This document shows positions 30,832-33,173 of a stretch of DNA of 64,000 bases, in pieces (the stretch's first letter is position 1; the number at the start of each line of letters is the position of its first letter). The stretch lies in the NCBI GenBank assembly GCA_001438605.1, contig LIDE01000012.1, forward strand, positions 26,001 to 90,000, written 5' to 3'. The DNA comes from SAR92 bacterium BACL16 MAG-120619-bin48 (GTDB taxonomy: Bacteria; Pseudomonadota; Gammaproteobacteria; Pseudomonadales; Porticoccaceae). The position numbers were made by a program, and so were the translations under genes. The notes under the pieces are model-generated. The model made no database searches, was not told the DNA's origin, and was given only the letters and a program-made list of their open reading frames with translations.

Positions 30832-31833
30832 TTAATTATTTTTTTTAGTGCGTACTTTTTGATCTTCCATGGTGCGATCGGCCTCAGTAAAGAGATCGTC
30901 GAGACTGCCTGTGTAGTCATCGAGGCTCGCGCCGTCGGTGAAATGTAACGAGGGAACTTCAAGCCCCGAAAAATAATCTGGATAGGCTGAAAACTCTCCC
31001 CAATCGGCCAATCGCGAAGCCATACTAACAACTAATAGCAAGATCACAAAACCTAGAGAGGTTGACCAGCGCTGGCGCGGCAGTAGATTGGATGCCAGCG
31101 CTAGCATTGCTGATAGCAGAAGTCCCAGCAGGAGCAGTCCGAACAGCGGAATCACGAAGACGTCAAAAATGGGGGCGTTAAAATTGTAACCTGCCACATT
31201 GAAGAGGGCCTCTCCGACGGAAAACAGTGCGCCGGCAATTAATAGCAAGCTGTAATGACCTAAGAAGTGGCTCTCTTCCCGCAAAAATCGTCCTAGAATG
31301 CCGAAAACACCGGCCACGAGCATCAGTATCGCCTGACTTAGCAGGACTTGCATGACGATGTTCTTCCACTGCCACTCAACGAAACTGCTGAGATAGAGGG
31401 AGAGAATATCGACGCTGATGGCTAAGATGGCGATTGGCAACCAAACCGACCAGCGGTTTAATCCGTTGAGCCCTGCCTCTAGCCGATGCAGGCGTTTGGC
31501 TTCATCAACGGGCTGATGCTCGTTGACGATGCGCAAGCGGGTGCGGCCAATTTTAATTTCCGCACCGCTGCCAATAATCACCTCAGTAGACGGGTTAGCG
31601 GTGGCCTCGAGATGACCTGGCTTGAGAATTTCAACGCCGTTGAGGCTTTGCAGGTCAGTCACTTGCCATCCATCGTTGACAAGGTCTAGGCGCAGATGAT
31701 TGGCGGAAACATGGGCATCTCCCAGCACCACGTCATTTTGATAGCTGCGGCCAATGGCTATCGATGGCCCGTCCAAACGGTAAAATTGCTTTCGTTTGCC
31801 GCCCCATCCCAACACTTCAATTATGACGGCCAT
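30832..31833 (-). CDS. FHA-domain membrane protein
   Basis: N-terminal FHA core SIAIGRSYQNDVVLGDAHVSANHLRLDLVNDGWQVTDLQSLNGVEI; C-terminal region with several TM segments. Confidence 0.83.
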   Translation of the reverse strand: MAVIIEVLGWGGKRKQFYRLDGPSIAIGRSYQNDVVLGDAHVSANHLRLDLVNDGWQVTDLQSLNGVEILKPGHLEATANPSTEVIIGSGAEIKIGRTRLRIVNEHQPVDEAKRLHRLEAGLNGLNRWSVWLPIAILAISVDILSLYLSSFVEWQWKNIVMQVLLSQAILMLVAGVFGILGRFLREESHFLGHYSLLLIAGALFSVGEALFNVAGYNFNAPIFDVFVIPLFGLLLLGLLLSAMLALASNLLPRQRWSTSLGFVILLLVVSMASRLADWGEFSAYPDYFSGLEVPSLHFTDGASLDDYTGSLDDLFTEADRTMEDQKVRTKKNN

Positions 31834-33173
31834 TTGGCAACTCCCAAAAATCGCTGCACAAAGCGTTTAGCGTTGTCCTGACTCACTCCGGCAAGGGTGA
31901 AATGGCTGATAAACGCTGCGCGCGACGCATCGACGGTGCCGTGTAAAAACAGGACGTCGTAGAGGTCGGGAAAGTCTTTGTAGGCGCGAACACAGAAGAT
32001 GTTTTTGCTTTTGCGGCTATCACTGTTGCGATTCTCGGCAAGGGCGAGGAATTGGCTATCGCAACGATACTCACCCAGGTCCTCTTCACTGCCTTTATTG
32101 CCAGGCGCAAAGTCACCAAATAGTCGCTCATAGTAGGCATAAAACTGCATTGGATTGAGCTTGTCCGCTTCGAGCCAAAAAAACTGATACTCCATGACGC
32201 CGGTGTTAAAGCCGCCGCTGAGATAGATATTGTCCTCGCTTCGACAGGTGCGGTCGGCACTGCGAAACTGTGCTTTCTCGGATGCGCTATTTGAGCCACC
32301 CCAACATTTCGCGAAGGGCACTATTTCGGCAATCACTTGGGCGCTGCCCAGTGACATGGTCGGCCACTCAAGGGCGAAAAGGCGGGAGAACTTGTCTGCC
32401 TGATCGGCTTTTAGCTGCTCGCCGATACGCTGCGTGAAATCACTTACCCCTTGCCCTCTGGCGCGATGCTCGGCACGCAGGTTGTGCAGCGCCTTCACCG
32501 GCACGAGAAAGCTGACTTGATTGCCCGCGGTGGAAACATTGATTCCGACAACCTCCCCAGTTTCGCTCAGTGTCGGGCCACCACTCATACCGGCATTGAG
32601 GGAGCCTGTGAAATGTACGCGGGGATGGTAGCTGGTCTGATTGACGCCATTGTAGGTGCCGGGAACCACGGTCAGGCCAAGATCCAGCGGATTGCCTAGA
32701 GCGAACAAGGGTGAACCCATATCAGGTTCAACCATCGCCAAGGGCAGCGGTGATGGCATGGTATCTTGGGTTTGCAGCAGTGCTAGGTCGTTGACTACAT
32801 CGACATCAACCAGCTGCAAATCGCCGGTGCTGTCATCGGCAGCGCTATATTCAATTCTGTATTGTCCGGGTTCGCTCGCGGCCAGCTGCACAACGTGATA
32901 ATTCGTGGCAATAAGTCCATCGCTCTCAATGACAAAACCCGAGCCAATGGCACTCTTGCTGCCGGAGGTAATATCAATAATGCGTATCTGTAAAATACTG
33001 GCTTTGTTGTCGGAAAAAAGTGACCGCGCACTTTCCGTTTGGGCCAGGCTGCCAAGAGGCCAAATAATCAGCGAGACAAGCAGGCTAAGATAGAAAAAAA
33101 GGCGTGAGGGCCTGACATGACGGTGGATGTGCAATAGGTGACTCCCAATTAAATTGCTGCGGTATTCTTTCAA
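31821..33173 (-). CDS. Secreted or membrane-anchored trypsin-like serine protease (S1C/HtrA-like, no clear PDZ)
   Basis: Triad contexts ATNYHVVQ, VNDLALLQ, GSLNAGMSGGPTLSETGEVVGIN; N-terminal hydrophobic segment. Confidence 0.83.
   Translation of the reverse strand: MKEYRSNLIGSHLLHIHRHVRPSRLFFYLSLLVSLIIWPLGSLAQTESARSLFSDNKASILQIRIIDITSGSKSAIGSGFVIESDGLIATNYHVVQLAASEPGQYRIEYSAADDSTGDLQLVDVDVVNDLALLQTQDTMPSPLPLAMVEPDMGSPLFALGNPLDLGLTVVPGTYNGVNQTSYHPRVHFTGSLNAGMSGGPTLSETGEVVGINVSTAGNQVSFLVPVKALHNLRAEHRARGQGVSDFTQRIGEQLKADQADKFSRLFALEWPTMSLGSAQVIAEIVPFAKCWGGSNSASEKAQFRSADRTCRSEDNIYLSGGFNTGVMEYQFFWLEADKLNPMQFYAYYERLFGDFAPGNKGSEEDLGEYRCDSQFLALAENRNSDSRKSKNIFCVRAYKDFPDLYDVLFLHGTVDASRAAFISHFTLAGVSQDNAKRFVQRFLGVAKWPS

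Follow-up and report, generated by a model that had tools for sequence, protein, structure and literature searches.

A trypsin-like protease and a membrane protein with an FHA domain form a conserved two-gene module, the members of which are paired near-obligately across several phyla. We analysed this pair in a window of 64,000 nucleotides (the whole stretch of DNA under study) from the Porticoccaceae genome of SAR92 bacterium BACL16 MAG-120619-bin48. As a whole, we lean slightly towards the view that the two proteins act as an envelope protease module, in which a periplasmic tail of the membrane partner docks or gates the protease and the FHA domain serves as an accessory cytoplasmic input.

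Gene structure and distribution of the pair

Both genes are located on the minus strand. The protease ORF spans 31821..33173, and its long form opens with a TTG at 33173. A TTG at 33134 appears to be the likelier start, judging from a GGAG Shine-Dalgarno sequence 6 nt before it and from the Sec signal that it would open (MHIHRHVRPSRLFFYLSLLVSLIIWPLGSLA, residues ~1-31, ending in GSLA and followed by Q). The gene read from this start (31821..33134) would encode an S1C/trypsin-like periplasmic protease of 437 aa (AlphaFold2 pLDDT 93.3, pTM 0.89), secreted and not anchored; thus, of the "secreted or anchored" enzyme of the original prediction, only the first half stands. The partner gene (30832..31833) encodes an FHA protein of 333 aa with five transmembrane (TM) helices (AlphaFold2 pLDDT 92.8). 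The ORFs and the PF13365 and PF00498 matches confirmed that the protease gene overlaps the FHA gene, the stop of the former and the start of the latter sharing 13 nt (ATGGCCGTCATAA, 31821..31833, minus strand). The ribosome site of the partner gene, GGGAG, sits within the end of the protease gene, and the two genes overlap by a similarly short stretch in relatives within the genus. The overlap and the internal GGGAG suggest translational coupling, as had been proposed, and the module is probably co-translated. The upstream gene, divergent from the module, was read from its sequence as encoding malic enzyme, and the next gene, 46 nt after the module, as encoding a product resembling an alanine/sodium symporter; the module region showed no terminator-like site.

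The co-occurrence of the two families in other genomes, on which the original prediction hinged, was borne out. In a first tblastn search for relatives, all 18 full-length FHA-5TM loci had the protease directly upstream. When 80 named genomic loci were gathered by protease alignment, the FHA-5TM gene lay directly downstream of the protease at 78 of them, and the remaining two ended at a contig edge. These loci range over Porticoccaceae, Microbulbifer, Rheinheimera, Colwellia and other Gamma- and Betaproteobacteria, and were also found in Omnitrophota, Fibrobacteres, Deferrisomatales and Myxococcota. Samples of the order, class and phylum agreed with this picture. Among 294 genomes of the order, full-length matches of both profiles, about 41 for each, stood out as one clearly delimited set, and every full-length FHA-5TM match adjoined a protease, contig edges aside. 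Module matches were detected in 26 of 370 genomes of the class sample; besides the window's own, 23 had an adjacent FHA-5TM gene, one had its protease cut by a contig edge, and one (G458) was a variant described below. The phylum sample contained 18 such genomes out of 398, with a 5-TM partner at all 18 loci. The search for conserved neighbours, kinases included, came out differently: ORF clustering in the 80 loci gave genus-level synteny only, with neither a third module gene nor a kinase conserved across genera. No match of the module was found on plasmids.

Within the window's genus, the module was patchy, being present in 13 of the 34 other species sampled, and genomes of 1.2-1.4 Mb lacked it with one exception. 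One locus (L144) carries the title 'Klebsiella pneumoniae isolate MH-08apr19-278' (MAG), which is probably a mislabel; the match position is that of G042:C4, in the window's order.

The protease and its five-helix partner

The trypsin/HtrA-type domain of the protease (residues ~46-218, 32481..32999, minus strand) matches PF13365 at 3e-24. In numbering from the TTG at 33134, its catalytic triad consists of His80 (32895-32897), Asp116 (32787-32789) and Ser184 (32583-32585), all on the minus strand; the motifs, described as intact in the original prediction, were identical in 141 of 141 aligned family members. PF13365 and the HtrA/Deg models cover only the first half of the protein. The second half is an alpha/beta domain (residues ~228-437, 31824..32453, minus strand), which every family member carries next to the protease domain. 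Its four near-invariant cysteines (277, 297, 358 and 381), kept in 140-141 of the 141 aligned members, probably form disulfides. Pfam models gave no convincing match to this C-terminal domain in any of 79 members, and PDB sequences gave none either. The predicted lack of a PDZ domain extended to all 79 members in the Pfam search. An internal duplication of the C-terminal domain, which has two strand-rich halves with two cysteines each, was considered and dropped, as hhalign of the halves gave a probability of 0.2%.

The best sequence and fold matches of the protease are HtrA/Deg S1C enzymes (DegP, DegQ, DegS and HtrA1), with which it shares the trypsin-like domain, the H-D-S order, the GxSGGP motif and the periplasmic location; Foldseek placed its model with HtrA1, DegS and Deg1. 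In contrast to these enzymes, it has no PDZ domain, a four-cysteine C-terminal domain of its own and a dedicated 5-TM partner gene, and it widely missed the NCBIfam cut-offs for HtrA/Deg proteins (TIGR02037, DegS, DegQ, DegP; 73.9 against 416.2, the others lower).

The TM helices of the partner comprise residues 128-149, 156-185, 190-218, 222-247 and 252-278 (31000..31452, minus strand). Four had been counted originally, but the average hydropathy of the partner family has five peaks and the AlphaFold2 model five confident helices; 58 of 79 members had five TM helices by a simple hydropathy threshold. Loops 2-3 and 4-5 carry positive charge (+1.5 and +2.1), the remaining loops are slightly negative, and the tail has a charge of -4.4; by the positive-inside rule, the predicted topology is N-in/C-out. 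With five helices instead of four, the tail would lie in the periplasm, on the same side as the protease, and the FHA domain in the cytoplasm, in keeping with the cytoplasmic position first assumed for it. The acidic C-terminal tail (residues 279-333, ~55 residues, 30835..30999, minus strand) carries the pattern F-x3-P-x-Y-x3-L-x2-P ... S-x-D-x-F-x6-L-F, which is common to most distant relatives, and the second part of this motif corresponds to a confident helix (304-332) in the AlphaFold2 model. The Foldseek matches listed were confined to the FHA domain, with no PDB fold match for the TM part among them, and no curated family was found for either this part or the C-terminal domain of the protease.

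Taken together, these features are consistent with the following scheme. The first gene would give a soluble periplasmic HtrA-type (S1C) serine protease, in which the alpha/beta domain replaces PDZ, and the second, translationally coupled gene would give a five-helix inner-membrane partner with a cytoplasmic FHA domain and an acidic periplasmic tail. The tail and the periplasmic loops would bind the protease, holding it at the inner membrane, and the tail may gate its activity or its access to substrates. An analysis of inter-protein coevolution over 134 pairs of sequences was too shallow to give a usable signal; tail columns made up 28% of the top 50 inter-protein column pairs, against 16% expected. 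Alternatively, the tail could be a substrate or an assembly signal.

The tail may also be read in the opposite direction, as the target of a protease that senses envelope damage and, by cutting it, alters or releases cytoplasmic factors bound to the FHA domain. DegS cleaves RseA, and the HtrA/DegS-type fold of the protease, the periplasmic location and conservation of the tail, and a gene coupling compatible with a protease-substrate pair would all fit such signalling from outside in. However, we regard it as quite improbable: the pair has no conserved sigma/anti-sigma, second-site protease or transcription factor neighbour, the protease has no PDZ sensor, and the tail is mostly a helix with scattered anchor residues and no single invariant cleavage-like site.

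The FHA domain, its phosphopeptide site and kinases

The FHA domain (residues 16-105, 31519..31788, minus strand) was recognized by PF00498 and PF16697 and by Foldseek, in which it matched GarA, OdhI and FhaA. The PF00498 match (3.6e-9) is above the cut-off, but it is outscored by that of PF16697, the Yop-YscD cytoplasmic domain (1.7e-12; 47.8 bits against a cut-off of 33.2). The phosphothreonine-site residues Arg29, Ser43, His46 and Asn65-Gly66 are all present in the window copy, and the site is complete in the window's own family, Porticoccaceae. Across the 140-141 members of the protein family, Arg29 is kept in 136 and Asn65 in 137, His46 in 118 of 140, and Gly66 in 114 of 139, the NG pair often being NP. 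The phosphate-contacting position 43 is Ser in only 46 of 140 members, and otherwise Asp (36), Cys (29), Ala (15) or Gly (11). Ten of the module genomes provided a control set of 38 further FHA domains; of these, 33 (87%) have the Ser and all 38 the His. In the FHA domains of one family, f43 (L184, L185 and L207), GS replaces GR, so that the near-invariant Arg is gone, yet the other site residues are kept, which makes for an uncommon pocket.

The repeated loss of the phosphate-contacting Ser and of NG, together with the higher score of PF16697 in the window copy, would be expected if the FHA domain were a phosphorylation-independent docking domain and the membrane protein a scaffold siting the protease at the inner membrane. 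A precedent has been considered for YscD/EscD-like proteins, as a purely structural role of the FHA domain in EscD/YscD was raised earlier (PMC1084347). Against this explanation, which we hold to be possible but doubtful, about one third of the members, the window's clade included, retain the full site, intact sites are less frequent in genomes without a kinase, and a scaffold role alone does not explain the conserved periplasmic tail. In the scheme of a tail-gated protease, which we prefer, the FHA domain would dock a cytoplasmic protein, via phosphothreonine where the site is intact, as in the window copy, and through this input the state of the cytoplasm would bias periplasmic proteolysis.

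The single FHA domain of the window's genome is the module's own. No kinase is visible in the window, as had been remarked; elsewhere, the genome encodes just one clear Hanks-type kinase (G000:C39:20113-20766; L002 1363..3255, plus strand), directly 3' of a dehydrogenase E2 gene. This protein of 630 aa, with HGDIKPSN and DWG motifs, is the sole candidate for a writer acting on the genome's one FHA domain. The presence of this kinase and the complete site in Porticoccaceae would suit an inside-out switch, in which a kinase gives rise to a phosphothreonine protein that binds an essential FHA domain, and the 5-TM partner then toggles the protease. The R-H-N-G residues were intact in 37 of 55 module genomes with a PF00069 match and in 1 of the 8 that lack one (Fisher p=0.005, shared ancestry ignored), and in Microbulbifer TPR-kinases are encoded 3-9 kb upstream of the module, both of which favour such a switch. 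However, when Ser/Thr43 was added to the site, the proportions were 16 of 55 kinase-bearing and 0 of 8 kinase-free module genomes (p=0.10, shared ancestry ignored), so that the complete site has no clear link to kinases. Moreover, NP or Asp/Cys pockets occur in the kinase-rich genomes G051, G095 and G637, FHA position 43 is Asp in Microbulbifer, and kinase genes are not conserved neighbours across the 80 loci, being nearby in Microbulbifer only. PF00069 matches were found in 57 of 65 module genomes and 33 of 40 non-module genomes, with no clear difference. With the FHA domain deleted in one genome that keeps the module, as described next, a switch of this kind appears unlikely to us.

In two Microbulbifer loci, L094 (108..4876, plus strand) and L104 (142..6590, plus strand), two kinase-TPR proteins are encoded on the module's strand within a few kb upstream of it; in L104 they are joined by a further FHA protein.

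In G458, a complete genome in one contig, the protease is followed by a protein with five TM helices and a tail but without an FHA domain (L175 2110..2748, plus strand), the ATG of which overlaps the protease stop (TGATG). Over 189 aa, this protein and the FHA-bearing partner of G556 share 39% identity, and the two loci have the same flanking genes. Both genomes have an intact protease triad, and neither has a PF00069 match for a Hanks-type kinase; the FHA domain of G556 has already lost its Arg. Judged from these sequences, one lineage is seen to have dropped the whole FHA domain and kept the protease, helices and tail. As the rest was kept, the conserved core of the module would consist of the protease, the five helices and the tail, and the FHA domain would be an accessory.

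A broader interpretation, that throughout the phyla a kinase signal read by the FHA domain controls the protease via the five-helix protein and its tail, and that lineages losing the kinase erode and then delete the reader but retain the core that controls the protease, seems to us rather unlikely. Since Ser43 is present in 46 of 140 members only, NG is often NP, the Arg has been lost in some lineages and the whole domain was deleted once, phosphothreonine reading finds no support as the general rule, nor does the phospho-signalling link of the original prediction as the general purpose of the module. In Porticoccaceae, which combine a complete site with a kinase, the link may still hold, and the FHA domain is possibly phospho-dependent in lineages such as the window's.

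Relation to known systems and implications

Several known systems resemble parts of the module. Like YscD, EscD and PrgH of type III secretion, the partner has an N-terminal cytoplasmic FHA-like domain, a membrane region and a periplasmic C-terminus, but those proteins have one TM helix and large periplasmic ring domains; we rejected a link to type III secretion, as the architecture differs (five TM helices, a tail of ~55 residues) and no secretion genes are conserved nearby. A link to type VI secretion through TagH was also rejected (TIGR03354, 20.4 against a cut-off of 120.25; no conserved neighbours). The actinobacterial FhaB/FipA and GarA/OdhI proteins share the FHA fold and, with the window copy, the phosphothreonine-binding residues; however, they are soluble or single-TM and tied to kinases, whereas the module partner has five TM helices and is tied to a protease (FhaB model, 43.9 against a cut-off of 125). 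In MarP, a periplasmic protease of mycobacteria, a trypsin-like domain likewise works with a multi-helix membrane part. There, protease and helices form one polypeptide without an FHA domain, in contrast to the separate genes and the FHA domain of the module, and the module protease scored 45.7 against a cut-off of 250 with the MarP model NF033740.

The S1C-NTF2 part of RsgI9 from Clostridium thermocellum, the sensor part of a single-chain anti-sigma factor (PMC12203970), likewise combines an S1C domain with an alpha/beta domain after it, linked to a transmembrane signalling protein. This structure (7sjy), among the better Foldseek matches, aligned over 331 columns, reaching past the protease domain, with an rmsd of 17 A, so that the similarity of the second domain is only a lead; the relative orientation of the domains differs, and RsgI9 is one chain. 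Bacteroides thetaiotaomicron NP_811686.1 also joins FHA with trypsin, but as an FHA-FHA-trypsin fusion in one protein (PMC2605481). A role as a defence system was rejected, as PADLOC gave only an RT-protease match and a weak candidate match, via the trypsin domain. Searches of openly licensed PubMed Central full texts yielded no description of this pair, in line with the original view that it is not a characterised system; its component kinds are known, but within those texts and the libraries searched their obligate combination appears to be previously undescribed.

Periplasmic HtrA-type proteases are usually seen as controlled from the periplasm, through PDZ domains and misfolded proteins. 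The module instead provides a PDZ-less S1C protease with a dedicated inner-membrane partner that spans the cytoplasm and the periplasm. Its carriers include culturable Microbulbifer, Rheinheimera and Colwellia, and the natural FHA-less variant lets the core be tested against the optional part. If the tail controls the protease, the module would constitute a route from the cytoplasm to envelope proteolysis.
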